DNA of 43,562 bases from a bacterium (GTDB lineage: Bacteria > Zhuqueibacterota > Zhuqueibacteria > Zhuqueibacterales > Geothermadaptataceae). Numbering within the stretch: the first letter of the stretch is position 1; each line of letters begins with the position of its first letter. The DNA is taken from assembly GCA_024275575.1 (NCBI GenBank), contig JAJRYV010000013.1:1-43562 (forward strand), in the 5' to 3' direction. Shown here one piece after another: positions 14,129 to 39,508 of this stretch. A model generated the notes under the pieces. That model was not told the DNA's origin and ran no database searches. It saw nothing but the letters and a program-made list of their open reading frames with translations. A program made the position numbers and the translations under genes.

Positions 14129-15325
14129 ATGAACAAAAAAATCTATTCTCAACTCAGCATCATGATGTTTCTGCAATTCTTTGTCTGGGGCGCCTGGGCG
14201 GTGACGCTGGGTACATTTCTCAACAGTATCGATTTTTCCGGTGATGATATCGGCAATGCTTATTTGATGACATGGGTCGCTGCGATTTTTTCGCCGTTTT
14301 TTATCGGTATCGTGGCCGACCGTTTTTTTGCTTCGGAAAAAGTGATGGGGACTTTGCATCTGCTGGGCGCTGTTTTGATGTACTTCGCCTCCAATACAAC
14401 CGAGCTGTGGCCACTTATTTTTATTATGCTTTTATTCAATCTGTGCTACATGCCGACGTTGGCGCTGGTCAATGCCATTTCATTTAATCAGATGGAACGT
14501 CCGGACAAGGAATTTCCCAAAGTACGCTTATGGGGCACCATTGGCTGGATCGTTGCCGGGTTGATTATCAGCTTTGTTCTTGGTGGTCTTTTCGAAAACG
14601 TCGAATCCACAGCCATTCCGATGAAGATGGCTGCGCTTGCCTCGCTCATCATGGGATTGTATTCTTTCACTCTACCCCACACACCGCCAAAAGACGCCGG
14701 GAAAAAATTTGCCGTCGCCGATATTCTCGGTTTAAAAGCCCTCAGCCTGATGAAGGAACGCTCTTTTCTCATTTTTACCGTGTCTTCTCTACTTATATGC
14801 ATTCCACTGGCTTTTTATTACAGCTTTGCCAACCTGTTTTTGAATAACATCGGCATGCAATACGCCGCAGCAAAACAATCGCTCGGACAAATGTCGGAAG
14901 TGCTTTTCATGCTGGTGATGCCGTTTTTTTTCGTGCGTCTCGGTGTGAAAAAGATGCTGCTCGTCGGTATGATCGCCTGGGTTGTGCGTTATGCCATGTT
15001 CGCCATGGGTGATCTCGGCGCCAATGTCTGGATGCTTTACGGCGGTATTTTGCTGCACGGCATCTGCTACGATTTCTTTTTCGTCACCGGGCAAATATAT
15101 GTGGATAAAGTTGCCGGTGTTGAAATTCGTGCCAGTGCGCAGGGATTTATCGCATTGATTACCTATGGTATCGGCATGAGTCTGGGGACCAAACTGGCCG
15201 GAAAACTGGTGGATATCAACACCAGCGCCGGGGTGATGGACTGGCCGGCCATCTGGTGGATTCCCTGTGTTTTTGCCGCTGCAATTTCACTGTTATTCTT
15301 TATTACTTTTAAGGATGATCGATGA
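14129..15325 (+). CDS. NupG-like MFS nucleoside/sugar porter
   Basis: A 398-residue protein with 12 predicted membrane spans. The opening SQLSIMMFLQFFVWGAWAVTL is characteristic of the nucleoside:H+ symporter branch of the major facilitator superfamily. GGAGG sits 9 bases before the ATG. Members import nucleosides by proton symport, but in FCB and planctomycete genomes homologues often sit beside Gfo/Idh/MocA genes and may carry modified sugars. Its stop overlaps the next gene's start in an ATGA junction, so transporter and oxidoreductase are translationally coupled, which favours a sugar-like substrate shared by both. That substrate is inference. Confidence 0.85.
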   Translation: MNKKIYSQLSIMMFLQFFVWGAWAVTLGTFLNSIDFSGDDIGNAYLMTWVAAIFSPFFIGIVADRFFASEKVMGTLHLLGAVLMYFASNTTELWPLIFIMLLFNLCYMPTLALVNAISFNQMERPDKEFPKVRLWGTIGWIVAGLIISFVLGGLFENVESTAIPMKMAALASLIMGLYSFTLPHTPPKDAGKKFAVADILGLKALSLMKERSFLIFTVSSLLICIPLAFYYSFANLFLNNIGMQYAAAKQSLGQMSEVLFMLVMPFFFVRLGVKKMLLVGMIAWVVRYAMFAMGDLGANVWMLYGGILLHGICYDFFFVTGQIYVDKVAGVEIRASAQGFIALITYGIGMSLGTKLAGKLVDINTSAGVMDWPAIWWIPCVFAAAISLLFFITFKDDR

Positions 15326-16578
15326 AACGACGAAATTTCCTCAAAACTGCCGCCGGCATCACAGCCGCTTTTACCATTATTCCGCGTCATGTTTTGGGCG
15401 GCACAGGGTTCACCGCACCCAGCGATGAACTCACCCGCGCCGTCATCGGTGTTGGCGGTATGGGACGCTGGCATGCCCGGCTGCAAAATTCACGTCTGCT
15501 CGCCCTCTGCGATGTCGATGCTAATCATCTGAAAAGAGCACTGGAAATGGTCGGTCCGGCTGTGCAGGGTTATCATGATTTCCGCGAAGTTTTACAGCGC
15601 GATGATGTGGATATCATTCACATCGCAACGCCGCCACACTGGCACGCTTTGATGGCCGTGATGGCCGCTGATGCGGGTAAAGATATCTGGTGCGAAAAAC
15701 CCATGACCCGCACCATCGGTGAAGGGCAAAAAGTCATCGCAGCGATGCAACGCAATAACACCATTTTTCGCATCAATACATGGTTTCGTTTCCGTGGTAA
15801 TTTTTATCGTTTTCATTCCACGGTAGCGCCGGTTAAAAAAGCGGCAGAAAACGGTTTGCTCGGCTGGCCGTTAAAAATCACGATCGGCAAACATCAGGGG
15901 TTTGAATGGAAATTTTTCTGGAGCGGCCATCCTGTCGCCGCGCCCGAGTGGATTCCCGATGAACTGGATTATGATATGTGGCTTGGCCCGGCGCCTTACA
16001 AACCCTATCACAAACACCGAACTCACCAGACTTTTCGCGGTTATTGGGATTATGACGGCGGCGGCCTCGGCGATATGGGGCAGCACTATCTCGATCCGGC
16101 ACAATATATTCTCGGCAAGGATGATACCAGCCCGGTGGAAATCGAGGCCGATGCACCGCAGGCTCATCCCGACGCTGTCGGCTCCTGGCGACGCATTTAT
16201 ATGAAATATGCCGATGGCTGCGAAATCATTCTCGATGGTGATGCCCGCGATAAAAACGCGCCGTTTATCGAAGGTCCGGCAGGCAAAATTTTTCCACGGT
16301 TAAAATCCGATATTCCTGATTTGCAAAAAAAACTGGCTTCATTACCCGATCCGCAGCCGCAGGTTACCGATTTTATCGAAGCGGTGAAAAAACGGCAGCG
16401 ATTTGCCTTAAATGAGCAAAATGGTCATCGTTCCACGACACTGGTGAATCTCGGGAAAATTGCCCTCCAGCTCGGCCGAAAATTGTATTTTGATCCGAAA
16501 TCACAGCGTTTTATCGACGATGAAGCAGCGAACCGTTTGATTGACCAGCCCATACGTCGGCCCTGGGTTCTGCGGTAG
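15322..16578 (+). CDS. Tat-exported Gfo/Idh/MocA-family oxidoreductase
   Basis: A 418-residue protein beginning MKRRNFLKTAAG, a twin-arginine signal (RRNFLK) with a hydrophobic stretch to about 27, so it is exported folded with its NAD(P) cofactor. The Rossmann nucleotide-binding loop is GVGGMG (43-48), and the catalytic-region motif EKP is intact at 125-127 (WCEKPMTR). The C-terminal half is the family alpha/beta domain, with GGGLGDMGQHYLDPAQY. The family oxidises or reduces sugars, cyclitols or glycosides, often at C3. It is coupled to the NupG-like porter by a 4-bp overlap and sits upstream of a DUF1080 protein, a combination that fits 3-keto-sugar metabolism. Confidence 0.9.
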   Translation: MKRRNFLKTAAGITAAFTIIPRHVLGGTGFTAPSDELTRAVIGVGGMGRWHARLQNSRLLALCDVDANHLKRALEMVGPAVQGYHDFREVLQRDDVDIIHIATPPHWHALMAVMAADAGKDIWCEKPMTRTIGEGQKVIAAMQRNNTIFRINTWFRFRGNFYRFHSTVAPVKKAAENGLLGWPLKITIGKHQGFEWKFFWSGHPVAAPEWIPDELDYDMWLGPAPYKPYHKHRTHQTFRGYWDYDGGGLGDMGQHYLDPAQYILGKDDTSPVEIEADAPQAHPDAVGSWRRIYMKYADGCEIILDGDARDKNAPFIEGPAGKIFPRLKSDIPDLQKKLASLPDPQPQVTDFIEAVKKRQRFALNEQNGHRSTTLVNLGKIALQLGRKLYFDPKSQRFIDDEAANRLIDQPIRRPWVLR

Positions 16579-16803
16579 AATTTTCAATCAACAATATTCA
16601 ACACTCTATGCCCAGTTTTCAACTTGCACCAATTTGAAGATTACTCCCGGGCGTCGGGAGAGAATGTACGAATGGTCAGGATAGAAAAGGTAGGGTATTT
16701 GTTACTTTCATTAACATCATTTGGATGAATACAATCACAGGTGATGCAAAGAAGCAAGGGTGGTTCTGGGCATTATCATCTTTTTAAACCAGGCATAATA
16801 ATC

Positions 16804-19800
16804 ATGATCAAAAAATTATTCCAAACAATTTTTTTTGCATTGCTGTTTGTCATTTCTTTTCTCGCAGCACAAACATCCGCTCAACTTCCAGGTAATTTGA
16901 CTGCATTGCTCGATGTATTGCCTACAGAAAATTCTGTTATTGCTGAATTACTGCTTGAGCGGATTATCGCGCAGGATGACGGCGTCGAAATTCTTTGCGA
17001 GGCGCTGCAAAAGCAACCGCGGGATTCGGTGCTGCAATACGCTATCAACGGCCTGGCAAAATATGTATCGCAAAAGAAAAAAAGCAAACGCCGCGATTTT
17101 AATAAAGCGCTTTGCACCGGCCTGACCGCCCACGCCGATGGGAACGTTGTTGCCAATGCTTTTGTGCTGGAGCAACTCAAAATAAGCGCATCCGCTGCTG
17201 AACTGAAAAAAATAAAATCTTTTTTGTTTGATGATAAACTTATCGATCCGGCCATTGCTGTTTTTATTGCTGTGGCCTCGCCGCAGGGAGGGAAGATCAT
17301 TTTAAATGCATTGAAACAGGCTTCCGATGCTCAGAAACTTAAACTCCTGCAAGCCCTTGGGGATTTAAAATACCAACCGGCGGAAAAAAAGTTGACCGCG
17401 TTTGTGCGCAATGAAAACGAGCGCTTGAGCACGGCGGCACTGCAGGCTATGGTGGCGCTTGCCTCACCAAAAATGATTGGCGAGGCCATTGCTTTTCATC
17501 AAAAAAAAGAAAAGAAAACTGCAACGGATTACAATGCTTTGCGCCTGCAGGCAGCGCGGCGCTTGATTGCGCAAGGGGATAAAAACTCCGCGCTGCAAAT
17601 CATCAAACCCATTGATGCGCACGTTCTGACACCGCATCTGTTTACTCAGCTTCTGCAGCTATCCTGCGATCTTGCCCCAGCCGCCGGATTGGCAAAATGT
17701 CTCACTGCCGCAAAAAATACCGATCCTAAAATCGCTGTCGCTGCTGTAAAAATCGCCGCTGCAAACAGGAGCAGTGAATCGGCGACAAAGTGGATATCCC
17801 ATTTTGATCAAATAAATGCTGTCGCACAGCCGCATACCGTTGACTTGATCGCACATGCAGCCATTGCAGCGGCTTACCCGTTTCTCGAAAAAGTCTTGCA
17901 AAGCGATAATCAAGCAAACCGCCTTGCTGCCCTGCGCAATTTACCCTCGGTTGCAGGAAAAAATGCAGTGCCCCGGTTGCTGGCCCATTTGCAGGGAAAG
18001 CCGGCAAAAAAAGAAATCGTCACCGTCATGGCGGTATTATCCGGCCTGCCCTTGGCTGACAGTGCAACACCGCTGATTGCGAAATTCCCCACCCTGCCCG
18101 ATGCTGCACTGGTCGCGGCTTTGCAATTTCTCCAACAAAAAAAATACAGCGGCAGCGTGGATGATATTATTGCCTTGCTCGGGCATAAAAACAGGCGTAT
18201 TCGATTTGCTGCGTTGCAAGTTTTGCAGATATCTGCTCCTGCAAAACGCATCCCCGACCTTCTCAACTACGCAAGAAATGCAACGAGTGCACGGGAACAA
18301 GCCGAGTATTTCAACACGATCAAAACGATTGCGCAATATCGGCAGGTATTACCCGTGCAAGTGCTTGCAAGTCTTGCCCGCTTGCAGGCGGCTGAGGACC
18401 TTGCGGCCAAAACTTTTGAATTGCCTCTGCTCGCCGGATTCGGCGCCAGCGAAGCGCTTGTTTCTATTTTTCAATTAACAAAATCTCCTGATAGCAAACT
18501 CGCCGATGCGGCTCATCGAGCGCTGTTCGCCTGGCCGCAAACCAACGCTTTGGAAACACTCCTGCAAATTGCGAGCGATTCTGATGAGCAAACCTGGCAT
18601 GTGCTCGCGGTGCGCGCCATCAAGCGGCTTATCGATTCGTCTGATTTTATTGCGGCTGCAAAAGTACATTATATCAGCCGGGGCCTTGCCGTCTGCCGTT
18701 CGGATGATGAAACCCGCCTGTTGCTGGGATCGCTATCGCAGGTACAATCAGCTGATGCGTTGCGATTGGCATTAAAATATCTTGAAAATGATTCCTTAAA
18801 AATGGCGGCAGGGGCGGCAGTTGTGCAGATCGCCGCAGCGCAGGGATATGATGAAATGGATGAATTGACTGCAGGGCTTTTGCAAGCAGTGTTGAAAAAT
18901 GCGGTTAATTCACCAGCATTTGACCGCATCGAAAGTGGATTTATAACACAGAACGAAGCGCCGGATAGTTTTGTGACATTGTTTAACGGCAAAGACCTCA
19001 GCAGCTGGCGCGGTTTGGCGGCCGATCCGCTGCAACGCCAAAAAATGACGGCAGAAGAATATGCACAGGCTCAGGTCCGGGCAGATTCGAGCATGCACCG
19101 GCATTGGCGCGTCGAAGACGGGATGATCATTTTCGATGGCCTGGGGCAGAGCTTATGTACGAAAAAAGATTATCAAAATTATGAATTACGCCTCGAGTGG
19201 AAAATAGAGAAAGACGGGGACAGCGGCATTTATCTACGCGGTGTGCCGCAGGTGCAGATTTGGGACCCGGCTTTTAACAAGGGCGTCGGCTCCGGTGGTT
19301 TGTTCAACAACAAGATCGGTGCAGACAAACCGCTGCACCTCGCGGATCGTCCCATCGGTGAGTGGAACTCCTTCCGTATAACGCTGATCGACGACCGCTG
19401 CACGGTGTACTTGAATGATGTGCTGGTAGTCGATAATGTGGTGCTGGAAAATTATTGGCAGCGCGATAAAAAACTCTATCCTGCCGGCTCCATCGAATTG
19501 CAGGCGCACCACAGCCCGCTGGCCTTTCGCAATATTTTCATTCGTGAGCTGCCGCCGACAGTGGATACGACTGTTGTCGATTTATTCAACGGCGTTGATT
19601 TATCCGGCTGGCAAATTATCGGCAACAGCGACGATTCGTGGTTTGCCGAAAACGGTATACTGACGACAAGTGGAAAAGGCGGCGGTTGGATTTCCACTGA
19701 AAGAGAATACGCTGATTTCACCCTGGAATTGGAGTTTCGTGTGCCTTCAGGCGGCAATAGCGGTGTTTTTCTGCGGGCGCCACATGCGGGTGATCCGGCT

Positions 19801-20133
19801 TACACGGGCATGGAAATTCAGATTTTGGATGATTATGCAAAAAAATACGCTGAACTAAAACCGTGGCAGTACAGCGGCAGTATTTATGCCGTACAAGCGC
19901 CGGCCAAACGGGTTTCGAAAGCGGCGGGGCAATGGCAGAAAATGAAAATAACCTGCAAAGGGCCGTCGGTGAAAGTCGATTTAAACGAAGAAAGAATTAT
20001 TGATACGAACTTGATCGAGAACATGGCCAAAACAGCGCATCATCCTGGATTGAAGCGGCGCAAGGGATTTATCGGTTTTCAAAATCACGGTGCGCGGGTT
20101 ACGTATCGGAATGTGAGAATTCGGGAGTTTTGA
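16804..20133 (+). CDS. HEAT-repeat protein with two C-terminal DUF1080 domains
   Basis: An exported protein of 1109 residues. I take the ATG at 16804 because it begins a clean signal peptide (MIKKLFQTIFFALLF...SAQ); the frame extends to 16741, but that would put 21 polar residues before it. Residues about 30-700 are alpha-helical repeats of HEAT type, with Ala/Leu-rich pairs such as RIRFAALQVLQISAP. Two DUF1080 (3-keto-disaccharide hydrolase/concanavalin-like) domains follow: about 720-915 (VTLFNGKDLSSWRG ... GDSGIYLRG ... FRNIFIREL) and about 925-1109 (VDLFNGVDLSGWQ ... GGNSGVFLRAP ... YRNVRIREF). DUF1080 proteins cleave or bind 3-keto-glycosides; the helical part may be a scaffold. It fits the Tat oxidoreductases on both sides. 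Confidence 0.85.
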   Translation: MIKKLFQTIFFALLFVISFLAAQTSAQLPGNLTALLDVLPTENSVIAELLLERIIAQDDGVEILCEALQKQPRDSVLQYAINGLAKYVSQKKKSKRRDFNKALCTGLTAHADGNVVANAFVLEQLKISASAAELKKIKSFLFDDKLIDPAIAVFIAVASPQGGKIILNALKQASDAQKLKLLQALGDLKYQPAEKKLTAFVRNENERLSTAALQAMVALASPKMIGEAIAFHQKKEKKTATDYNALRLQAARRLIAQGDKNSALQIIKPIDAHVLTPHLFTQLLQLSCDLAPAAGLAKCLTAAKNTDPKIAVAAVKIAAANRSSESATKWISHFDQINAVAQPHTVDLIAHAAIAAAYPFLEKVLQSDNQANRLAALRNLPSVAGKNAVPRLLAHLQGKPAKKEIVTVMAVLSGLPLADSATPLIAKFPTLPDAALVAALQFLQQKKYSGSVDDIIALLGHKNRRIRFAALQVLQISAPAKRIPDLLNYARNATSAREQAEYFNTIKTIAQYRQVLPVQVLASLARLQAAEDLAAKTFELPLLAGFGASEALVSIFQLTKSPDSKLADAAHRALFAWPQTNALETLLQIASDSDEQTWHVLAVRAIKRLIDSSDFIAAAKVHYISRGLAVCRSDDETRLLLGSLSQVQSADALRLALKYLENDSLKMAAGAAVVQIAAAQGYDEMDELTAGLLQAVLKNAVNSPAFDRIESGFITQNEAPDSFVTLFNGKDLSSWRGLAADPLQRQKMTAEEYAQAQVRADSSMHRHWRVEDGMIIFDGLGQSLCTKKDYQNYELRLEWKIEKDGDSGIYLRGVPQVQIWDPAFNKGVGSGGLFNNKIGADKPLHLADRPIGEWNSFRITLIDDRCTVYLNDVLVVDNVVLENYWQRDKKLYPAGSIELQAHHSPLAFRNIFIRELPPTVDTTVVDLFNGVDLSGWQIIGNSDDSWFAENGILTTSGKGGGWISTEREYADFTLELEFRVPSGGNSGVFLRAPHAGDPAYTGMEIQILDDYAKKYAELKPWQYSGSIYAVQAPAKRVSKAAGQWQKMKITCKGPSVKVDLNEERIIDTNLIENMAKTAHHPGLKRRKGFIGFQNHGARVTYRNVRIREF

Positions 20134-20984: not shown

Positions 20985-22352
20985 ATGAGCGCAAAAGAGC
21001 CTCCATCAAAAAAGCAAATGCCGCGTCGTGATTTTCTCAAATCTACAGCCGCCACCGGTGCGGGATTTATCATCACACCACCGTTTATCCGGGCGCAATC
21101 CCGCGGTCGCGCCAAAAAAGTATGGGGGCCGGAAACCCTGAATATCGGTTTGATCGGCTGCGGCGCCGAAGGCCAGGTGTTGAGGAACGCCGCCCGGAAC
21201 ATCCCCAATGTCCGCTTTAAAGCCGTCTGCGATATCTGGGAGGAATACAACCAGAAACTGGTCTATCGCCGCCTGAAAGCATACGGTCACGCCCCCAATA
21301 AATACGTCGATTACCGCGAACTTCTCGACAAGGAAAAAGACCTGCACGGCGTCATCATCGCGACGCCGGATTTTCACCATGCCGAACAAACCATCACAGC
21401 GCTGGAATCCGGGTTGCATGTCTATTGTGAAAAAGAGATGTCCAACACGCTGGCAAATGCCAGGAAAATGGTGCGGGCACAAAAACGCACCGGCAAATTG
21501 CTGCAGATCGGGCACCAGCGGCGCAGCAATCCGCGTTATATCCATTGTTATGAAAAGCTGATTAAAGAAGCCAATTTGCTCGGCCGCATCACCACCATCA
21601 ACGGCCAGTGGAACCGCGCGGTGCAGCCCGATAACGGCTGGCCGGAAAAAGCGACGATTTCACCGGCGCGTTTGAGGAAATACGGTTTTAAAAATATGCA
21701 CCAGTTCCGTAACTGGCGCTGGTATAAAGGTCTGGGCGGCGGCCCAATCGTCGACCTCGGTTCGCACCAGCTCGATATTTACGCCTGGTTCCTCGGTGCC
21801 CCGCCGGTTTCGGTGATGGCCAGCGGCGGCACGGATTATTATGAACCGGCAACGCACGAATGGTATGACACCGTGCAAACCATGTTAGAATTCACCTCTC
21901 CCACCGGTAAAGTTCGCGCCACCTACCAAACGATCACCACCAATAATAATGAAGGTTATTTCGAAGCTTTCATGGGCGACCAGGGCGCGTTGATCATTTC
22001 CGAATCAGCGGCGCGCGGCGGCGTTTACCGGCAACAAACAGCACCGCTGTGGGATGAATGGGTTGAAAAAGGATATATTAAAGCGCCGGAAGAGAAAAAA
22101 CCGCAAAACACCGGCGCTGTGCTCGATGTGCGCGAGACCCTGGCGCCGCCGGTACACGAAATTCCGGTGGAGTTTAACGACCCCTACCACAAACCGCATC
22201 TCGAAAATTTTTTCAATGCGATTCGTGGTGATGAAGAACTCAATTGCCCGGCGGAAATTGGCTATGAAACAGCCGTGATGGTGCTGAAAGTGAACGAAGC
22301 TGTGGAAGCACAGAAACGTTTATTTTTCAAACCGGAAGAATTTCATGTCTGA
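20985..22352 (+). CDS. Tat-exported Gfo/Idh/MocA-family oxidoreductase, EKE variant
   Basis: A 455-residue protein with AAAGGAAACAAG before the ATG. PRRDFLKS at 13-20 is a twin-arginine signal. The nucleotide-binding loop is GLIGCGAEG (55-63). The position of the usual EKP reads EKE (149-151, VYCEKEMSN), so the conserved proline is replaced by glutamate. The C-terminal half has WRWYKGLGGGPIVDLGSHQLD, a conserved substrate-side segment of this subgroup. Like the first Tat oxidoreductase it should act on a sugar or glycoside outside the cytoplasm; the two are only distantly alike and probably have different substrates. It has its own strong promoter and is followed by a repeat element, so it is likely monocistronic. 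Confidence 0.88.
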   Translation: MSAKEPPSKKQMPRRDFLKSTAATGAGFIITPPFIRAQSRGRAKKVWGPETLNIGLIGCGAEGQVLRNAARNIPNVRFKAVCDIWEEYNQKLVYRRLKAYGHAPNKYVDYRELLDKEKDLHGVIIATPDFHHAEQTITALESGLHVYCEKEMSNTLANARKMVRAQKRTGKLLQIGHQRRSNPRYIHCYEKLIKEANLLGRITTINGQWNRAVQPDNGWPEKATISPARLRKYGFKNMHQFRNWRWYKGLGGGPIVDLGSHQLDIYAWFLGAPPVSVMASGGTDYYEPATHEWYDTVQTMLEFTSPTGKVRATYQTITTNNNEGYFEAFMGDQGALIISESAARGGVYRQQTAPLWDEWVEKGYIKAPEEKKPQNTGAVLDVRETLAPPVHEIPVEFNDPYHKPHLENFFNAIRGDEELNCPAEIGYETAVMVLKVNEAVEAQKRLFFKPEEFHV

Positions 22353-22669
22353 AAATGGGATATGAAATTTACAAAAGATGTTTTAATCCGTTTCATCCGT
22401 CAAATCGATGTTCCGGTTTTAAAAACATGGAGCTAAGCGAATAAATTTGTAACTGTTTAGCCATCGCTGTTTATGCTCAAAAGGTATATTGTAAAGCTTT
22501 AACGCATGCTGACATCAAAGCGGACGCCGAACTTGCCGAAGCGGGAGCGGCGCCACGGAACACTCGGGGAGCTCGAAACACTCCCTTCAAGTTCAGGGAG
22601 CATTTCGCTCTATTGATCGCGAATGAGGCTAAACGAGATACATAAATTTGAATGAGGAATAGTAGAAGA
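22353..22669. other. Intergenic region, mostly repeat
   Basis: No gene is seen. The first 85 bp hold an ATCCGTTTCATCCGTCAAAT string, a degenerate motif resembling one at about 40651. The remainder is interspersed repeat copy 4. The promoter of the cytochrome genes should be here or within the repeat but is not obvious. Confidence 0.45.
22449..22641. repeat. Interspersed inverted-repeat element, copy 4
   Basis: The left end GTAACTGTTTAGCC mirrors the right end GGCTAAACGAGATAC, and the symmetry continues outward as ATAAATTT on both sides. The interior has GCCGAACTTGCCGAAGCGGGA and a degenerate TTCAGGGAGC. At 193 bp it is the longest copy. It ends about 28 bp before the cytochrome start and may affect its expression. 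Confidence 0.65.
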
Positions 22670-24526
22670 ATGCAAATGATAAAATGGCTGTTTTTTTTAC
22701 TCATCAGCAGTGCGCAGGGTCTGTTCGCTCAAACAGAAAAACTCGGTGATCAATCCGATGGTAATCGTTCGTTGCCGGTGCATCGCATCAAACTTTTCGA
22801 TGAAAACGGCGATGTTGTCAAACCCTACCACGAGCGCCGGTTACCGTTTTCCACACGAGAGACCTGTGGCGGCGATTGCCACAGCTACGAGACTATCGCA
22901 CAAGGCTGGCATTTTGAATCGGGATTTGGCGAAAATCCGGCCGGGCGGCCGGGGCAGCCGTGGATTCTGAGCGATCAATTCAGCGCTACGCAAATTCCCC
23001 TTTCCTGGCGCGGCTGGCAGGGAACACTGCACCCGGATTCCCTCGGTTTCACTGCTTTTGAGTTTGTTAAAAAATTCGGCGGTTTTTATGCCGGAGGCGC
23101 AGCCGGTGAAATCGATTCATTGCATGCCATCGATTTTCTCGCCCGCTGGGACGTCTCCGGCAAGCAGGAAATCAATTGTTTGGCCTGCCATGAATCAAAC
23201 CGCGGCTACGACCCGGCAGAATATGCGGCACAAATCAAAAAAGAGAACTTTCGCTGGGCCGCCACTGCCGCGAGCGGCATCGGGCAGGTCGAGGGCTCGG
23301 CGGCTAAAATGCCTGATCATTATAACCTCTACGATAATTTCGACCCTCCGGCCCCCAACAGCCCTCTGCCGATGGTTTTTTATGAAAAGACAGCCTTCAA
23401 TCGCAAAGGCGAAGTGTTGTTTTCTATCCAGCGCCGCGTGTCTAACGAAAAATGCTACGCCTGCCACAGTACCGTAGTCTTCAGCAGCGATGGCGAACGC
23501 CGGCAGAGCGATGAAGATGTACATATTTCCGCCGGCTTAAATTGTATTGATTGCCACCACAACGGGCTGGACCACAAAATGAACCGTGGATTTGCAGAGG
23601 AAAAAAACGGCGCGCCCTCGCTCACCTGTGCCGGTTGTCATCTTGGAGATAATGCTGCAGCGCTTGCCGGGCGATTGGGGGCTCCAAAACCGCAGCATGC
23701 CGGTCTGCCGCCATTGCATTTTGAAAAACTGAGTTGCGCAACCTGCCATTCGGGGCCATTGCCGCAAACCGAACCGGTTGATATTAAAACCTCGGTTTCA
23801 CACCGGCTGGGAACCCGTGGCGTCAACAAATCGCCGGCAACTGTTCCGCATATTCAGGCACCGGTTTTTCTGCCCGGGCATGACGGCAAAATCGCACCGC
23901 ACAAAATGATCTGGCCTGCTTTCTGGATTGCCCGGCAAAATGAGAAAGAGAAAATTTTATCCTCAGAAATCGTACGGCCTGTGGTTCTGGAACTGACAGC
24001 CTACCGCGATACACTCAGAACAGGTGATTGGCCGCAGTTTTCCGATTCTCTGCTGGTCGCGATTTTAAACATGCTGGCAGCACAGGATACGACGCTGAAA
24101 TCGGTAGGATATATCAGCGGTGGCCGCTTGTACGCAGTGGCAAACGACAGCGAACTCGTGGCTGAGAAAACTGAACTTGGCAGACCCTACGCCTGGCCGC
24201 TGGCCCACGATGTGCGTCCGGCGCGGCAATCTCTCGGCGTCAACGGCTGCGGCGATTGTCACGCTCCCGGAGCCCCCTTTGATTTTGCCAAAGTGAGCGC
24301 GAAAACCGCAGTGCTGTCAGCCGATTCCGAAGAGCAATCGATGATTGCCTTTCGTGGTGGTAACGAAATTTCAGCACAAATCTTCGCATTCACCTTCTAT
24401 TCTCGCCCCCTGCTGAAAGTTCTCGTTTTGATTTCCAGCCTTGTTTTGGCTGCAATTTTAGCGTTATATGCGTTAAAAGCACTTTCCGCATCGATGCAGA
24501 AACATACCGACGAAGAGCTCATTTGA
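22670..24526 (+). CDS. Membrane-anchored multihaem c-type cytochrome (6-7 haem sites)
   Basis: An exported cytochrome of 618 residues from the ATG at 22670, preceded by GAGGA; an in-frame ATG at 22652 (624 residues) lacks a ribosome site. Numbered from 22652, six CXXCH haem sites are at 176, 268, 298, 326, 362 and 533, and a CX3CH (CGGDCH) at 72 may bind a seventh. Extra His residues (HFESG, HHNGLDH) can be distal ligands. A single C-terminal membrane helix (about 588-612) anchors it with the haems facing the periplasm. Its stop lies 14 bp before a b-type cytochrome candidate, so the pair probably passes electrons between the quinone pool and a periplasmic partner. Partner and direction unknown. 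Confidence 0.85.
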   Translation: MQMIKWLFFLLISSAQGLFAQTEKLGDQSDGNRSLPVHRIKLFDENGDVVKPYHERRLPFSTRETCGGDCHSYETIAQGWHFESGFGENPAGRPGQPWILSDQFSATQIPLSWRGWQGTLHPDSLGFTAFEFVKKFGGFYAGGAAGEIDSLHAIDFLARWDVSGKQEINCLACHESNRGYDPAEYAAQIKKENFRWAATAASGIGQVEGSAAKMPDHYNLYDNFDPPAPNSPLPMVFYEKTAFNRKGEVLFSIQRRVSNEKCYACHSTVVFSSDGERRQSDEDVHISAGLNCIDCHHNGLDHKMNRGFAEEKNGAPSLTCAGCHLGDNAAALAGRLGAPKPQHAGLPPLHFEKLSCATCHSGPLPQTEPVDIKTSVSHRLGTRGVNKSPATVPHIQAPVFLPGHDGKIAPHKMIWPAFWIARQNEKEKILSSEIVRPVVLELTAYRDTLRTGDWPQFSDSLLVAILNMLAAQDTTLKSVGYISGGRLYAVANDSELVAEKTELGRPYAWPLAHDVRPARQSLGVNGCGDCHAPGAPFDFAKVSAKTAVLSADSEEQSMIAFRGGNEISAQIFAFTFYSRPLLKVLVLISSLVLAAILALYALKALSASMQKHTDEELI

Positions 24527-24540
24527 TCGAGGATAAATTT

Positions 24541-25164
24541 ATGGTATTTAATATCTTTTCTCTCATAACCGTCATCATCACAGTGGTGTGGTTTTTTGTG
24601 AGGTTGCGTATTGCCAATCATCAAACCGGGGCGGTGATCAAATGGTGGCGTCAAAGCGTAAAAATGGCATGGAGAGAGGTACAAAACAAAGGCTGGTTCA
24701 GGCAAACCGGCATGCGTCGTTTAAGCTATTTCCTCGTGCTGGATTTGATGCTTGTTCTCAGCCTGAGCGCTCTGATTCAACCCTGGTTTTTTCAGCAAAA
24801 CATGTCCGGCCTGCTACTACTTATGCATATGATCACCGCACCTTTTTTTGCCGTCTTTCTGGTTTTATTCGCCTTTTACTGGTCACATACGATGCGTTTT
24901 AATGACAAAAAAAACAAGCAATCACGGAATCTGAAACTGTGTTACTGGAGTGGACTGACCACTGCTTTGATCGTCATCGCTGCGAGCACGATAGCTATGT
25001 TTCCGCTTGCCGGCAACAGCGTTCAAATCACCCTCGCTACAATTCATAAATATGCGGCAGTGGTACTGGTCGTTCTGTTCTTCCTGCATGCCTATCTCAT
25101 CATGACAATGAGATTTGAACCAGCGAAAGCGAAACAAAAAGACAGCAAGAAAAAGGCAGTTTGA
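24541..25164 (+). CDS. Five-span membrane protein, probable b-type cytochrome
   Basis: A 207-residue protein. The ATG at 24541 has GAGG 8 bases upstream, and this start removes codons that overlap the cytochrome gene. Hydrophobic spans lie near 3-21, 62-80, 88-114, 136-156 and 167-190. His96 and His116 bracket span 3 and His169 and His183 bracket span 5, a layout able to hold two bis-His b haems as in cytochrome b561-like subunits. I do not recognise a named family with certainty. With the multihaem cytochrome directly upstream it forms a two-gene module that could oxidise menaquinol and hand electrons to the periplasm. The lysine-rich tail is cytoplasmic by the positive-inside rule. Confidence 0.6.
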   Translation: MVFNIFSLITVIITVVWFFVRLRIANHQTGAVIKWWRQSVKMAWREVQNKGWFRQTGMRRLSYFLVLDLMLVLSLSALIQPWFFQQNMSGLLLLMHMITAPFFAVFLVLFAFYWSHTMRFNDKKNKQSRNLKLCYWSGLTTALIVIAASTIAMFPLAGNSVQITLATIHKYAAVVLVVLFFLHAYLIMTMRFEPAKAKQKDSKKKAV

Positions 25165-25166
25165 GC

Positions 25167-25299
25167 GTGTCGGTTCAGCCTCACTCGCGCGCATTAGCGC
25201 GAAGCGATGTCCTGAGCATGAAGGGCACGCTTCGAGCCCTCCGTAGTGCCGCTTCCGCTTCGGTAAGCTCTGCGTCTGCCTGATGTGCTAAACAGATAC
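25167..25299. repeat. Interspersed inverted-repeat element, copy 5
   Basis: The left end GTGTCGGTTCAGCC starts two bases after the stop of the b-type cytochrome gene, and the right end is GTGCTAAACAGATAC. The interior has GCTTCGGTAAGCTC near the right end. If transcribed, it would put a hairpin at the 3' end of the cytochrome message. Confidence 0.65.
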
Positions 25300-25400
25300 T
25301 TCTTTTGCGTGAGAATTATTCAGGATAAATTCGATTTCACATTTGCAGCGCCACCGCAGGAAAACTCCTTTTTCCTGCAAAAAACAGATTGGAGAACCTG

Positions 25401-27749
25401 ATGCGATGCTTGACCTTTTTATGGCTCATTCTTCTGAATTTAAACCTTACTCTTGCCAGTGAACCTGTAAAAGTTGGAAAATATCCGCAGGAAGTCCGCA
25501 TTTTTTATAAAGTTGCAGACGGCTTAGCGTCGGATGAAGTGAATGCGGTCGTCGTTACCCGCTCAGGTATTGCCTATGCCGGCACTGCACAAGGCCTGGC
25601 TTATCTCGATGCTCCGGCATTTGGGCAATCAGGCAAAACATGGGAAAATGTGGCAAAACTCGATGGGCTCTCTATTCTTAAATTAGCTGTGGATGGGGAT
25701 GATGTCATCGCTCTCACCGAAAAAAAATCAACAGCTTTTCTCTATCTGCTAAATGAGCAAAAAGTTAAAAAAGAAATCAAATTGCCACAGGATTTCCTGA
25801 AAGCTGCCCTACTGCTTTCAGGAAAGAAATTGTTTATCGGTAACGCATCGGGACTTTATGCCATCGATTTAAAGGGCAAAGGAAAAACTAAATTGATCGG
25901 CTTGAAAAACCATGCTGTTCGCCAATTAACGCTCACGCACGACGGAAAAATCATCGCTGCCACCGATCGCGGCCTGATGAAATTTGATCGCAAAAAGAAA
26001 ACAAGCGAAGCCATTTATCCACGCTCAGGCGATCAAAGCTGGGCGCCGATTGATGTGCGCGCGGTTTTCCACGACAGCAAAAGCCGCCTGTGGTTTGCCA
26101 GCCCCCAGGGCGTGGGTTGCTTCGATGGAAAATGGACACTCTTTACCGGTGCCGAGGGTTTGCCCTATAATGATTTTACCTGTGCTGCACCAGGCCAGAA
26201 CGGCGTTGTCTGGTTTGGCACAGGCAAAGGCGCCATTCGCTACGACGGCTCCCACTGGGCTTACCGCCAGGGACGACGCTGGCTCGACGATGACGCTGTT
26301 CGTGACATTGCCGTAAACGCCAAAGGTTTTGCCTGCATTGCGACAGCAAAGGGTTTGAGCGTGATTTACCACACTCCGATGACACTGGCCGAAAAAGCAA
26401 AATTTTATGAGGATGAAATCGATCGCTACCACCGCCGCACACCATACGAATTCGTGCTGGAAGTCGGCTTGCCCGAAGCCGGCGTGAAAAAAAATGTGCG
26501 CAAGCACGATAGCGATAACGACGGCTTGTGGACCAGCATGTACGGCGCCGGGGAATGTTTTGCCTACGCCGCAACAAAAGACCCGCTGGCAAAAAAACGG
26601 GCGGATAAAGCCTTCAAAGCGATGGAGTTTTTACGCAAGATCACCGAGAATGCCGAACATTCACCGCCTATGGGTTTTGTCGCACGCACGGTTTTGCCGA
26701 CCGATGGCCCCGATCCCAACGTGGGGCGTGTCGAACGGGATCGGGAGAATAAAAAGAACAACGATAAATTATGGAAAGTCTACGAGCCGCGCTGGCCGCG
26801 CAGCGCTAACGGCAAATGGTATTGGAAGACCGATACCAGTTCCGACGAACTCGACGGGCATTACTTTCTCTATGCGCTGTATTTTGATCTCGTCGCAGAA
26901 ACGGAAGCGGAAAAAACCGCGGTTCGCTACCAGGTTAAAGCGCTCACCGACCATTTGATCGACCATGATTTTCAGCTCATCGACCACGACGGCAAACCGA
27001 CACGCTGGTCGCGTTTCAGCCCGAAAGAACTGAATTTCAGCAAAGACTGGTTTGTCGAGCGCGGCTTAAATTCTCTGAGTATGTTGTCCTATCTCGCCGT
27101 TGCCGAGCATGTCACCGGCGATTCGAAATACGGCGAAATCAAAAAAGACCTGATCGAAAACCACAGCTACATGCAAAACCTCATGCGGCAGAAGTTTCAT
27201 CACGGCATCGGCACCGGCAACCAGTCCGACGATGAAATGGCGTTTATGGCCTATTACCATCTGCTGAATTATGAAAAAAAACCTGAATGGCGTTCGCGTA
27301 TCGCCATGTCGTTATGGGATAGCTGGAAAATCGAAGAACCGGAGATGAATCCTTTTTTCAATTTTGTTATCGCCGCAGTTGCCACCGATTTGAGCTATAC
27401 CGACGCTTATGGCACATACTCGACGGCGCCAACCGGCGACTGGCTTAAGGACGCCATCAACACCTTGAAACGCATTCCCCTCGACCGCGTCAACTGGCAT
27501 CACGACAACAGCCGGCGTATCGATATTTTGCGCCTGCATCCATCAAACGAGGCTTTCGATGAAAAACCATTTGCGGGCAAAGGCTACCGCACAAACGGCA
27601 AAGTTATCCCGGCGGATGAAAGCTATTTCAACCACTGGAATCACGATGTCTGGCGCCTGAAATCCGGCGGTAACGGCCACGGTCTCGGCGACGGCACAAT
27701 TTTCCTGCTGCCGTATTACATGGGTTTGTATCACGGATTTATTCAGTGA
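25401..27749 (+). CDS. Exported beta-propeller fused to a helical-barrel domain
   Basis: A 782-residue protein. The ATG at 25401 has TTGGAG upstream and begins a signal peptide (CLTFLWLILLNLNLTLAS). Residues about 30-335 are propeller blades of the two-component-regulator type, with recurring cores such as GIAYAGTAQGLAYLD, KSRLWFASPQGVGCFDG and VVWFGTGKGAIRYDG. Residues about 345-782 are helical, with aromatic and acidic patches (DNDGLWTSMYGAGECFAY, TDTSSDELDGHYF, HHGIGTGNQSDDE) that resemble an (alpha/alpha)6-barrel sugar-active enzyme, but I cannot assign a family. No kinase or DNA-binding part is present, so this is not a hybrid regulator. Context points to carbohydrate handling in the periplasm or at the surface. 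Confidence 0.65.
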   Translation: MRCLTFLWLILLNLNLTLASEPVKVGKYPQEVRIFYKVADGLASDEVNAVVVTRSGIAYAGTAQGLAYLDAPAFGQSGKTWENVAKLDGLSILKLAVDGDDVIALTEKKSTAFLYLLNEQKVKKEIKLPQDFLKAALLLSGKKLFIGNASGLYAIDLKGKGKTKLIGLKNHAVRQLTLTHDGKIIAATDRGLMKFDRKKKTSEAIYPRSGDQSWAPIDVRAVFHDSKSRLWFASPQGVGCFDGKWTLFTGAEGLPYNDFTCAAPGQNGVVWFGTGKGAIRYDGSHWAYRQGRRWLDDDAVRDIAVNAKGFACIATAKGLSVIYHTPMTLAEKAKFYEDEIDRYHRRTPYEFVLEVGLPEAGVKKNVRKHDSDNDGLWTSMYGAGECFAYAATKDPLAKKRADKAFKAMEFLRKITENAEHSPPMGFVARTVLPTDGPDPNVGRVERDRENKKNNDKLWKVYEPRWPRSANGKWYWKTDTSSDELDGHYFLYALYFDLVAETEAEKTAVRYQVKALTDHLIDHDFQLIDHDGKPTRWSRFSPKELNFSKDWFVERGLNSLSMLSYLAVAEHVTGDSKYGEIKKDLIENHSYMQNLMRQKFHHGIGTGNQSDDEMAFMAYYHLLNYEKKPEWRSRIAMSLWDSWKIEEPEMNPFFNFVIAAVATDLSYTDAYGTYSTAPTGDWLKDAINTLKRIPLDRVNWHHDNSRRIDILRLHPSNEAFDEKPFAGKGYRTNGKVIPADESYFNHWNHDVWRLKSGGNGHGLGDGTIFLLPYYMGLYHGFIQ

Positions 27750-35295: not shown

Positions 35296-36711
35296 ATGTA
35301 TAAAGCAAGCATGGAAACACAGCAAGATTCGACGACAGAAATTCGGCCCCGAAAAAAACTCACCCTCAAATCAGCCATCTCCACACTTGAGAAACAGATC
35401 AGCCGGCACAGCCGTGCAGGCGATAGCGAATCAATTCGACGATTTAAAATACCCATCAAAACAATCGACCCGCTCAAATGGCTTGAAGCTCAGGAAACAA
35501 CAAACAGAATATACTGGGCTGATCGTGATACACATTTTGCCATGGCCGGACTGGGTTCAATCCATACGATCGCTGCTGAAGCAGATATCGATTTCACCAA
35601 CCTGTTTAAGCGTTTGCACAATTTTCTCACAAAAAATCAAGCTGGTTTACGGTTTTATGGCGGGTTACGCTTTTACGAATGTTTTGAAAATGATGCGACC
35701 TGGCAGCATTTCGGCGCTTACCGCTTTATCATTCCGGCTATCGAGCTCTGCCAGAGCGAGGCAGGTACATTTCTGGTCTGCAATTTCCACGATCCGGCAA
35801 AAGCGAAATCTCTGCTGCAAAACATCGTTATTCCCAACGATTCCGCACAGCCTTCTGTGACGACGAACGACATATTGAATTCGACACTGATTAAAAGAAC
35901 AGACATCCCCCATGAAGAGGCTTGGGACAAAAACATTTCCGCTGCTTTGCACGCTTTCAAGGCGCGACAATTAGATAAGGTTGTGCTCGCACGAAAATCA
36001 GTTTTCGAGTTCGAAAAAAAAATCAATCCTGTTAAACTAATCCAAAAGTTACGGCAGGCGAACAGCAAATTGTTTTATTTTCTGTTTCAATTTTGCCCGC
36101 AATCCGCTTTTCTCGGCGGTTCGCCGGAATTGCTTTACAGACGAAACGGGCGGTATATAAAAAGTGAGGCCATCGCGGGAACGCGCCCCTGCGGAAAAAC
36201 GCCGCAGGAGACTGCAAAATACGGGCAGGACTTGCTGCAATGCGAAAAAGACCGACGGGAGCACCGTTTTGTTCAGGACAGTATCGAGAAAAATTTACGT
36301 GGAATCTGCGAAAACATCGACATCGACGATCACGTTAGTTTGTTGCAGCTATCGCGGGTGCAGCACCTGCATTGCAGGTTGCAAGGTGTGCTTTCACAGG
36401 GCGTCACCGACGACCACATCATTCAACTGATGCACCCGACGCCGGCTGTCGGAGGTATCCCGAAGGAGAAAGCCATCGCCGCCATTCGTCAACTGGAACA
36501 TTTCGACCGCGGCTGGTATGCCGCACCGATCGGTTACATCAGCCAGGATGAAGCGGAGTTTGTCGTCGCTATTCGTTCGGGATTAATTCGCCAAAACACC
36601 TTGTCACTCTTCAGCGGCGCCGGCATCGTTGAGGGCTCAAATTCTACCAGCGAATGGGAAGAGATCGAAAATAAAATATCGAATTTTATGAAGGTCATCT
36701 CCACAAGATGA
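35296..36711 (+). CDS. menF: Isochorismate synthase
   Basis: A 471-residue chorismate-binding enzyme that converts chorismate to isochorismate, the first committed step of menaquinone synthesis. The C-terminal two thirds carry the family core: FQFCPQSAFLGGSPELLYRR, EAIAGTRPCGKTPQET, QCEKDRREHRFVQDSI, LMHPTPAVGGIPKEKAI, and FSGAGIVEGSNSTSEWEEIENK at the end. The lysine general base of MenF-type enzymes is probably within LDKVVLARKSVFEF. The start could be ATG 35296 or the in-frame ATG 35311; neither has a strong ribosome site. It overlaps menD by 4 bp. Salicylate or siderophore use is less likely because menD, menH and menB follow. Confidence 0.9.
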   Translation: MYKASMETQQDSTTEIRPRKKLTLKSAISTLEKQISRHSRAGDSESIRRFKIPIKTIDPLKWLEAQETTNRIYWADRDTHFAMAGLGSIHTIAAEADIDFTNLFKRLHNFLTKNQAGLRFYGGLRFYECFENDATWQHFGAYRFIIPAIELCQSEAGTFLVCNFHDPAKAKSLLQNIVIPNDSAQPSVTTNDILNSTLIKRTDIPHEEAWDKNISAALHAFKARQLDKVVLARKSVFEFEKKINPVKLIQKLRQANSKLFYFLFQFCPQSAFLGGSPELLYRRNGRYIKSEAIAGTRPCGKTPQETAKYGQDLLQCEKDRREHRFVQDSIEKNLRGICENIDIDDHVSLLQLSRVQHLHCRLQGVLSQGVTDDHIIQLMHPTPAVGGIPKEKAIAAIRQLEHFDRGWYAAPIGYISQDEAEFVVAIRSGLIRQNTLSLFSGAGIVEGSNSTSEWEEIENKISNFMKVISTR

Positions 36712-38471
36712 TACGCCAATCGTGCAATATCAATTCTCTCTGGGCTGCGCTGATCGTCGAGGAGCTGGTGCGTAACGGCGTCGGGCAGTTTTGTATTTCT
36801 CCGGGATCACGATCAACCCCTCTAACGATAGCGGCGGCCGATAATCCCTTTGCCACAACATCCGTTTTTTATGATGAGCGTGCAGCGGCTTATTTCGCTG
36901 CCGGATATGCCCGCGCCACCAACACGGCGGCTGTTTTGATCTGCACCTCCGGCACGGCAGTTGCCAATTATTTCCCGGCTGTCATCGAAGCAGCGAATGA
37001 GAACCTGCCTTTGTTGATTTTATCTGCCGACCGCCCCTCTGAATTACGGGATACGGGCGCAAATCAAACCATTGATCAACCCGGTATTTTTGGGAAGTAT
37101 GTGCGCCGGCAGTTTGATTTCCCCTGCCCCACCCCGGAAATTCCACTAAAATATGTGCTCACAACAATCGACAGTGCCATTCATCATACCCAGCAATCGC
37201 CGGCCGGTCCTGTGCATATCAATTGCATGTTTCGCGAACCCCTGGCACCGCCCGCTAACGGCGTGACCGATGGCCTGAATTTCAATGAAATTAACCGCTG
37301 GCTTGAAACTTCGAAGCCGTGTACGGTTTATTTTTCGGCAAAAAAAAACATGCCGGATGAGGAAATAAAAAAGGCAGCTTCGACTATTAATTCATCTGCT
37401 TCCGGATTGATTGTTTTGGGTGAATTGCCTCAGGATTGCGATCGTCGGGCGGTGCTGCGTTTTTGTTGCGAACTCAATTGGCCGGTATTTGCGGATATCC
37501 AATCGGGGTTGCGTTTAAAAAAAACCGGCGCTCCGTTTTTGCCGTATTTTGATCAATTACTGCTCAGCGAAAAATTCAAAACAGCTTTCAACCCCGATAC
37601 CATCGTTCAATTGGGTGATCGCATCGTTTCAAAACGATTGCTGCAATTTATTGAAAACACGGTGCCTGATAATTATATTCTCGTTGCCGATCACCCTTAC
37701 CGCCGCGATGAGTTGCATCAGGTTTCCATGCGTTTTGATTTGCCGATCGCTTCATTTTGTCAATCATTGCACAATCATTTGATCCTCGCACAATCGTCGA
37801 CCAACATCATCGGGGCTAATGCTGCAGCCGGAGAACAGATAGCCAAATTTTGTCAACAATCGCATACTTTGAATGAAATCGTTATCGCCCACAGCATTGC
37901 TGCGATCATTCCACCGGGGCGTGGTCTTTTTCTCGGCAACAGCATGCCCATCCGCGACATGGATATGTATGGCGGTTTGAGCGAGAACGACATCGAAATT
38001 GCGGCAAACCGCGGCGCCAGCGGCATCGATGGCAACCTGGCGACGGCTTGTGGTTTCGCTGCCGGCCTGCAGAAGCCAGTGACGGTTTTACTCGGTGACT
38101 TGGCAGCCTTGCATGATCTCAATTCTTTGCATCTCATTTCGCAATCATCGCAGCAAATGATCATCATTCTGATCAATAACCACGGCGGCGGCATTTTCGA
38201 TTTTTTGCCGGTAGCGCAAGTGACGCCTCATTTCGAAAAATTTTTCAGCACGCCGCATGAATTTAATTTTAAAAATGCCGCAAAGATGTTCTCGATTCGA
38301 TATCGATCGCCTGCGAACATAATAGAATTCAAACAAAGTTATCAAAAACTTGTCGATACAGGTCAACCGGCGATCATTGAAATCTTCACAGATCGCGGGC
38401 AAAACCGGCAACTGCACCGGCAGTTGCAAACACGGTTAGCGAATAATATAAACAGGTATTTAGCAGACTGA
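36708..38471 (+). CDS. menD: SEPHCHC synthase (MenD)
   Basis: A 587-residue thiamine-diphosphate enzyme that joins isochorismate and 2-oxoglutarate to give SEPHCHC. The N-terminal domain shows QFCISPGSRSTPL (27-39) and FYDERAAAYFAAGYAR with Glu57, the residue that activates the cofactor. FLGNSMPIRDMDMYG and ANRGASGIDGNLATACGFAAG lie in the C-terminal domain, with the diphosphate/Mg2+ motif VLLGDLAALHD...INNHGGGIFDF. Length and motifs match MenD throughout. It is translationally coupled to menF by an ATGA overlap. Downstream, 111 bp containing an interspersed repeat separate it from menH. Confidence 0.95.
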   Translation: MIRQSCNINSLWAALIVEELVRNGVGQFCISPGSRSTPLTIAAADNPFATTSVFYDERAAAYFAAGYARATNTAAVLICTSGTAVANYFPAVIEAANENLPLLILSADRPSELRDTGANQTIDQPGIFGKYVRRQFDFPCPTPEIPLKYVLTTIDSAIHHTQQSPAGPVHINCMFREPLAPPANGVTDGLNFNEINRWLETSKPCTVYFSAKKNMPDEEIKKAASTINSSASGLIVLGELPQDCDRRAVLRFCCELNWPVFADIQSGLRLKKTGAPFLPYFDQLLLSEKFKTAFNPDTIVQLGDRIVSKRLLQFIENTVPDNYILVADHPYRRDELHQVSMRFDLPIASFCQSLHNHLILAQSSTNIIGANAAAGEQIAKFCQQSHTLNEIVIAHSIAAIIPPGRGLFLGNSMPIRDMDMYGGLSENDIEIAANRGASGIDGNLATACGFAAGLQKPVTVLLGDLAALHDLNSLHLISQSSQQMIIILINNHGGGIFDFLPVAQVTPHFEKFFSTPHEFNFKNAAKMFSIRYRSPANIIEFKQSYQKLVDTGQPAIIEIFTDRGQNRQLHRQLQTRLANNINRYLAD

Positions 38472-38503
38472 TGGATTACGGCGAAACTCCCACTCAAAAA
38501 TTC

Positions 38504-38601
38504 ATAACTGTTCAGCCGGCGCGGCGAACGCTGAGCTTGAAGCGAGGACGCCCCTTAGGCAAGCTCAGGGAATGTTTCTCTGATGCAGCCTGAACAGATA
38601 C
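38504..38601. repeat. Interspersed inverted-repeat element, copy 6, overlapping menH
   Basis: The left end ATAACTGTTCAGCC mirrors the right end GCCTGAACAGATAC. Inside, GCTGAGCTTGAAGCG and GGCAAGCTCAGGG are the nested inverted motifs. The right end runs over the first codons of menH: the ATG at 38583 and the codons for MQPEQI all lie within the element. Confidence 0.7.
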
Positions 38602-39407
38602 AAAAAATCTCCCACAACGGATTGGCTTACTTCACACAGGGTAAAAAACAAAATCCGCCAATCCTTTTCCTGCATGGATTTATGGGGTCCAGTCGCGACT
38701 GGCTTTCCATTGCCGGGCACTTTGCCGAAAGCTGTTTTTGCCTCCTGCCCGATTTGCCGGGACACGGTGCGAGTACGGATATTGCGGAAAACCACTACAC
38801 AATGCCGGCCTGTGGAAAACTTATTATCGCTTTGATGGATGATTTACAAATTCGTACAGCCCATTTGGTCGGCTATTCGATGGGGGCGCGACTGGCCTTT
38901 TATCTTGCTGCATTTTTCCCGTCGCGCTTTCGCTGCATCGTGCTGGAATCGGCTTCGCCGGGTTTGCACAGCGCAGAAGAACAAAAGCAGCGCATTCTGC
39001 AGGATGAATCACTGGCACAAAAACTCGAATCAGACAAGATGGAAGAATTTCTCGATTTCTGGTATGAATTGCCCTTGTTTGCAACGCTGCAAAAACATAA
39101 ATTGCTGCACATGCTGAAAAAATCCCGCATGCAAAATCAGCCGGCGAAACTCGCGCTTTCACTGCGCAAAATGGGCACCGGATCGATGCCGGATTTATGG
39201 CCGCATCTGGCGTCGATCGACAAACCGGTTTTGCTGATGACCGGAGAGAAAGACCGGAAGTTTTGTGCAATAAACAAAGCGATCGCAAAACAATTACCCG
39301 ACTGCCGGCATGAAATCATGACCGCTTGCGGGCATAATATGCACTTTGAAAACCGTGAAATGTTTATCGATTTAATCACTTCATTTTTTCGTGAGAACCG
39401 CCGTTAA
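38583..39407 (+). CDS. menH: SHCHC synthase, alpha/beta hydrolase (MenH)
   Basis: A 274-residue alpha/beta hydrolase between menD and menB. MenH eliminates pyruvate from SEPHCHC to give SHCHC. The oxyanion-region motif FLHGFMGSSRDW (29-40), LPDLPGHGAS (55-64), nucleophile Ser99 in GYSMGAR, Asp224 in GEKDRKF and His251 in CGHNMHFE form the expected triad. The first ATG lies inside an interspersed repeat and only a weak AGGGA precedes it. Residues 1-8 are therefore element-derived, or the true start is a non-ATG codon nearer the conserved core; the next Met (residue 34) would remove part of the fold. Confidence 0.85.
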   Translation: MQPEQIQKISHNGLAYFTQGKKQNPPILFLHGFMGSSRDWLSIAGHFAESCFCLLPDLPGHGASTDIAENHYTMPACGKLIIALMDDLQIRTAHLVGYSMGARLAFYLAAFFPSRFRCIVLESASPGLHSAEEQKQRILQDESLAQKLESDKMEEFLDFWYELPLFATLQKHKLLHMLKKSRMQNQPAKLALSLRKMGTGSMPDLWPHLASIDKPVLLMTGEKDRKFCAINKAIAKQLPDCRHEIMTACGHNMHFENREMFIDLITSFFRENRR

Positions 39408-39508
39408 GATTGCAATTATGGCAACTAATAAATTGAGATGGCACTGTGCAAATCGATCATCACAATCCATACAGATTACAAAAAAACAGCTTCAATTTGG
39501 AGGAAAAG

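Follow-up and report, generated by a model that had tools for sequence, protein, structure and literature searches.

The DNA analysed here (the window, 43,562 nucleotides in length) encodes a seven-haem cytochrome c (gene A) and a five-helix cytochrome b (gene B), and their joint conservation across genomes supports the view that the two belong together. Directly upstream of this pair lies gene C, a candidate exported sugar oxidoreductase, and the pair probably feeds electrons from extracytoplasmic sugar oxidation into the respiratory chain. Judged from sequence comparison, it is about an even call that C, A and B constitute one unit, a quinone-linked periplasmic module for sugar oxidation. 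The features on which this reading draws are the following.

15322 to 16578, forward strand: second exported-type Gfo/Idh/MocA oxidoreductase, of another subfamily (PF19051, 450 bits).
16741 to 20133, forward strand: HEAT-repeat protein with two PF06439 (3-keto-disaccharide hydrolase) stretches (PF06439, 302 bits).
20985 to 22352, forward strand: gene C, Tat-signal Gfo/Idh/MocA oxidoreductase (455 aa; P0003).
22652 to 24526, forward strand: gene A, seven-haem cytochrome c (624-aa open frame; PF14522, 39.7 bits; P0001).
22866 to 22882, forward strand: haem site 1 of A, a CX3CH motif (CGGDCH, residues 72-77) in a column that is CXXCH in most relatives.
24541 to 25164, forward strand: gene B, five-helix cytochrome b (ATG preceded by GAGGA; P0002 is read from a TTG at 24523).

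The probable start of gene A is the in-frame ATG at 22670, which yields a better signal peptide than the start at 22652 and is the one adopted in the initial annotation. The same annotation described a membrane-anchored protein with six CXXCH sites and one CX3CH, in agreement with the reading frame, which shows all seven motifs (CXXCH at residues 176, 268, 298, 326, 362 and 533) and a C-terminal membrane helix, located at residues 585-623 in the predicted model (pLDDT 83.5, pTM 0.83). The CX3CH spacing is restricted to haem site 1, where it occurs in 11 of 80 relatives while the rest carry CXXCH, and is thus no chance artefact. Seven haem sites are found in 79 of the 80 relatives, the exception (L159) being a gene split over two frames. 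Eight histidines outside the motifs (H44, H87, H291, H308, H349, H356, H384 and H519) are invariant among 61 aligned rows, with one unknown residue in the H44 column, and would suffice to ligate all seven haems in bis-His fashion. A sequence search of the PDB returned no meaningful match to A, and plasmid and viral collections contained no relatives.

Membership of A in the NapC/NrfH, octahaem tetrathionate reductase (OTR), MmcA, OmcA/MtrC and DmsE families was considered and rejected, all scores lying under the curated cut-offs. The NapC/NirT profile PF03264 matched with 19.5 bits over 48 residues (cut-off 24.1), TIGR04315 with 24.7 bits (cut-off 375) and the MmcA-type TIGR04314 with 35.6 bits (cut-off 250); weak matches to the latter two were obtained for 33 and 30 of 50 members of the A family, respectively, all far below the cut-offs. 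Nor did A attain the cut-off of any family of nitrite reductases. The initial annotation had likewise set the pair apart from NrfH/NapC and from known nitrite and tetrathionate reductase pairs. The best structural match of the A model is nevertheless OTR (1sp3; Z 7.9, rmsd 4.5 over 303 residues, against 5.0 for the next match), although Foldseek returned no match at E <= 0.001 for either this model or that of an A-B fusion protein (L109). OTR and its octahaem relatives carry eight haems, whereas A carries seven and lacks the second. When aligned with two distant octahaem proteins (L077 and L080), A coincides with them at seven of the eight haem columns, and the second column reads CGYCHPGGG in octahaem relatives versus FGRHMPGGS in a relative of A (L090). 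In OTR, catalysis takes place at haem 2. Provided that the haems of A follow the same order, A may have given up its active-site haem and retained the electron-conducting ones, the pattern to be expected if an enzyme had been turned into a relay. The same phylum contains OTR-like proteins with eight haems and a membrane helix at the C terminus (L077:8135-10600, L080:8720-11185, L079:1-2313 and L076:8131-10704); the last is fused to a cytochrome b of the formate-dehydrogenase-gamma type (TIGR01583, above cut-off), and L078 and L079 have CX4CH at haem site 1.

The distribution of the pair was analyzed at two levels. Among 82 genomes of the same phylum searched with A, 17 full-length relatives were found, each with seven haem sites and each with a B relative directly 3'. 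An alignment scan of named genomes using A alone identified 229 relatives, of which 80 loci were kept (60 clusters at 70% identity). Fifty of these loci are from Planctomycetota and the others from Calditrichota/KSB1, Acidobacteriota, Fidelibacterota (Marinimicrobia), Omnitrophota and Bacteroidota, giving a spread over at least six phyla, with some loci coming from unplaced or doubtfully labelled genomes. B adjoins A in 66 loci and is fused to it in 7, that is, in 73 of the 78 loci with downstream room, which answers the call of the initial annotation for a survey of co-conservation. The fusions (L109, L136 and five others among the 80) occur in Planctomycetota and Acidobacteriota. Four of the five loci without B carry a different cytochrome b in its slot: the planctomycete loci L143, L153, L158 and L160 encode there a protein of 237-252 aa that is a clear PF01292 cytochrome b but looks unrelated to B, the PF01292 match having been tested in two of the four.

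The ATG of B at 24541 lies 14 bp past the stop codon of A, the spacing initially reported; the alternative TTG start at 24523 overlaps that stop. B contains five hydrophobic segments. The window sequence has the four histidines (H102, H122, H175 and H189, numbered from the TTG) to which two haems had been assigned, but the family retains only the first and third of them: H102 and H175 are each conserved in 55 of 56 representatives, whereas H122 is histidine in 17, H189 in 26 and both together in 9. One haem b is therefore well supported and likely, and the second would be optional at best. From the pattern of charged loops, the two invariant histidines appear to sit in helices 3 and 5, close to the periplasmic end of each. 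PF01292 matches the window B with 17 bits (cut-off 30.1), the relative in L090 with 36.9 bits, and 11 of 17 family members at E <= 0.05. In the model of the L109 fusion (pLDDT 77.7), the B-like C-terminal bundle resembles in fold the quinone-reducing cytochrome b FdnI, its closest match (1kqf_C, Z 11.8), followed by cytochrome b561 (5oc0, Z 10.7); since Z values in that range also arise from unrelated helical bundles, the Pfam matches weigh more. B appears to be a divergent PF01292-type cytochrome b of the FdnI/b561 type, which makes quinone chemistry likely. FdnI and the Ni-Fe hydrogenase cytochrome b provide four haem ligands, whereas B has two conserved histidines, and the four-His, two-haem-b ligand set of PF01292 is absent as a conserved feature among the 56 representatives.

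Gene C matches PF01408 (63.8 bits), PF22725 (56.2) and PF02894 (54.2), with PF01408 and the C-terminal domain above cut-off, and its Tat signal scores just under the cut-off of PF10518 (21.4 bits). A twin-arginine motif is present in 60 of 64 orthologues, and C has the Rossmann glycines; the catalytic-type residues K150, D257 and H261 are invariant, and the usual EKP reads EKE here. Solved relatives in the PDB are sugar oxidoreductases, DgpA and glucose-fructose oxidoreductase among them, which is consistent with C being a candidate NAD(P)-binding sugar oxidoreductase. An orthologue of C lies directly 5' of A, on the same strand, in 71 of the 74 loci that extend far enough upstream to show it; clustering at 70% identity gives 52 of 54. 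As the scan used A alone, this adjacency was not selected for. The three remaining loci (L105, L142 and L144) extend as far and carry A and B but no C, which counts against the module. In the phylum set, C is present in 19 of the 22 genomes with A, and A lies at or near a contig end in the other three. Although Gfo/Idh/MocA genes abound in Planctomycetota as a rule, those found elsewhere in these loci reach no more than about 105 bits, whereas the orthologue beside A has a median near 618 bits; the small number of weak scores among these orthologues comes from cut or split genes. The position of C directly 5' of A, overlooked initially, shifts the likely role of A and B from that of a generic quinol-to-periplasm conduit to that of a redox partner for an exported sugar oxidoreductase.

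The gap between C and A has a median of 29.5 bp across loci and measures 299 bp in the window, where it contains a repeat of approximately 140 bp (22500-22640) with 35 full or partial matches across the host genome. A 47-nt part of this repeat recurs inverted (79%) 3' of B, at 25233-25279. A mobile cassette delimited by such inverted arms around A and B was considered and dropped, because the upstream arm is part of the genome-dispersed repeat. Further 3' of B (25389-27749), a 786-aa protein with two-component-regulator propeller repeats is encoded, and its gene is kept beside the pair in the closest relatives only (L088 and L089).

The surroundings of the three genes are compatible with a function in sugar metabolism. 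The neighbouring HEAT-repeat protein with PF06439 stretches is probably part of the same pathway, and a PF06439-like gene lies within 3.5 kb 5' of A in 44 of 63 loci. Four menaquinone-type genes (chorismate-binding, MenD-like, MenH-like and MenB-like) occupy positions 35296-40330, approximately 10 kb from the pair and with other genes intervening; together with the two Gfo/Idh/MocA genes they account for the menaquinone genes and Tat oxidoreductases reported initially.

Under the proposed mechanism, C would be exported in folded form via the Tat pathway with its nicotinamide cofactor bound and would oxidise a sugar outside the cytoplasm. The substrate may be a glycoside, with oxidation plausibly at C3, a guess suggested by the neighbouring 3-keto-disaccharide hydrolases. 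The bound cofactor would be beyond the reach of cytoplasmic recycling, and its electrons would pass from C to A, whose seven haems would form a relay held to the membrane by a single helix. From there they would reach the conserved bis-His haem b that B is predicted to hold close to the periplasmic side, and finally a quinone, presumably menaquinone. Such a scheme resembles LacABC, the lactose 3-dehydrogenase of Caulobacter, in its membrane-linked extracytoplasmic 3-oxidation of sugars and in having PF06439 proteins nearby (PMC9007349). LacABC, however, is a three-component dehydrogenase, whereas here the candidate dehydrogenase is of the Gfo/Idh/MocA type and the putative acceptor is a seven-haem cytochrome c paired with a cytochrome b. 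The single haem b on the periplasmic side of B would be unusual for a transmembrane quinone reductase and speaks against the module.

The architecture of the pair has a described counterpart in Geobacter CbcBA (GSU0593/GSU0594; Gmet_2929/2928), in which the membrane-bound heptahaem CbcA accompanies the PF01292 protein CbcB (PMC7726332; PMC10989804). Compared by described anatomy alone, A and B are likewise a membrane-bound heptahaem cytochrome c beside a PF01292-type cytochrome b, and this two-part likeness suggests that they might act as a menaquinol oxidase passing electrons outward to periplasmic or outer-membrane cytochromes in extracellular electron transfer, with C a mere neighbour from a sugar cluster. 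The host genome (G000) would provide a suitable setting, with 37 matches to the cytochrome c7-type family PF14522, in open frames whose length reaches 1,300 aa, on contigs C71, C72, C111, C138, C142 and others; this abundance of multihaem cytochromes suggests that the organism may also perform extracellular electron transfer. For Seep-SRB2, a CbcBA operating in reverse has been put forward (PMC10553843). A general conduit, however, would not be expected to have C beside A in nearly all loci across at least six phyla, and the recurrent neighbours of A are of sugar type, with no porin-cytochrome cluster among them. PF09699, the family assigned to CbcA, gives no match to A at E <= 1, and CbcBA is followed by cbcCDE, in place of which A and B are partnered by the Gfo/Idh/MocA gene; no genes of the cbcCDE type (further c-type cytochromes such as cbcC and cbcD, or the membrane protein) were found in the window or among the recurrent neighbours of A. 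We hence regard the outward-directed oxidase as unlikely.

A similar layout, an N-terminal multihaem part followed by a C-terminal b-type part, is found in CbcL, MtrH and MtoC (PMC6295460) and in the seven A-B fusions. CbcL has nine haem sites, six helices and three conserved histidines, against seven haem sites in the fusions and two conserved histidines in B, and the CbcL/MtrH/MtoC proteins are single chains, whereas the window has two genes. The suggestion in the initial annotation of an undescribed complex between quinol and periplasm is supported as to quinone chemistry, which is likely, but an anatomy of this kind had been described for CbcBA, which the annotation did not name. We group the three genes with quinone-linked assemblies of a multihaem cytochrome c and a cytochrome b, and the tie to an exported Gfo/Idh/MocA enzyme was found in no description in the literature, the search covering few subscription papers.

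Electrons could also run in the opposite direction, from menaquinol through B and A to C, which would then reduce a keto-sugar or another carbonyl in the periplasm. Multihaem quinone modules are discussed as running both ways in the case of CbcL, MtrH and MtoC (PMC6295460), and Gfo/Idh/MocA enzymes in general catalyse both directions. Spending respiratory electrons on sugar reduction, however, offers no evident gain, and the PF06439 hydrolases nearby are expected to act on 3-keto sugars, which must first be made by oxidation. Reverse flow accordingly appears improbable.

Relatives of C are not confined to loci with A. In the phylum set, 21 genomes have C and no close A, and a sister clade of C without A (17 rows, support 100/100) is mostly followed by a four-helix membrane protein of the DoxX/DoxD family (L236, L238-L240, L242, L244-L247 and L249-L252). 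DoxD is a subunit of thiosulfate:quinone oxidoreductase, which makes a quinone-reactive partner for C plausible, and we read the DoxX-type protein as a possible alternative membrane partner. Clusters of both kinds share ApbE, a secreted discoidin-type protein and a ten-helix protein with the motif RPMHTDEAVHA. That C might instead be redox-neutral, oxidising and re-reducing its substrate on bound NAD in the manner of GH109 with A and B merely resetting enzyme left in the wrong redox state, would accord with the genomes having C and no close A and with the redox-neutral glucose-fructose oxidoreductase of the same superfamily, but is very unlikely given that the clade without A keeps another quinone-type membrane protein beside C, as if a membrane partner were generally needed.

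Returning to sugar oxidation linked to quinone reduction, the weakest link of the proposed mechanism is the step from hydride to haem. This transfer normally requires a flavin, and no flavin protein that would split the hydride into single electrons was identified, the sole hint being the gene for the flavin transferase ApbE in 26 of the 60 A clusters. The covalent-flavin motif D.[ST]GA[TS] is absent from the clustered proteins, and none of the terms looked for is present in a published survey of flavinylation (PMC8238504). We put at somewhat under even the chance that the locus represents a new type of respiratory sugar dehydrogenase, spread over at least six phyla, in which a Tat-exported, nicotinamide-bound Gfo/Idh/MocA enzyme would be reoxidised through a dedicated seven-haem cytochrome c together with a quinone-reducing cytochrome b. 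In the sister clade, a DoxX-type protein would take over this task.

How the many exported Gfo/Idh/MocA enzymes of Planctomycetota, Calditrichota/KSB1 and other groups recycle their cofactor lacks an explanation. If true, a dedicated relay of haems leading to quinone would provide an electron acceptor for one conserved branch of these enzymes and couple extracytoplasmic carbohydrate oxidation to the respiratory chain. Some CbcBA-like pairs, which metagenome studies take to indicate extracellular electron transfer, would then have another purpose.
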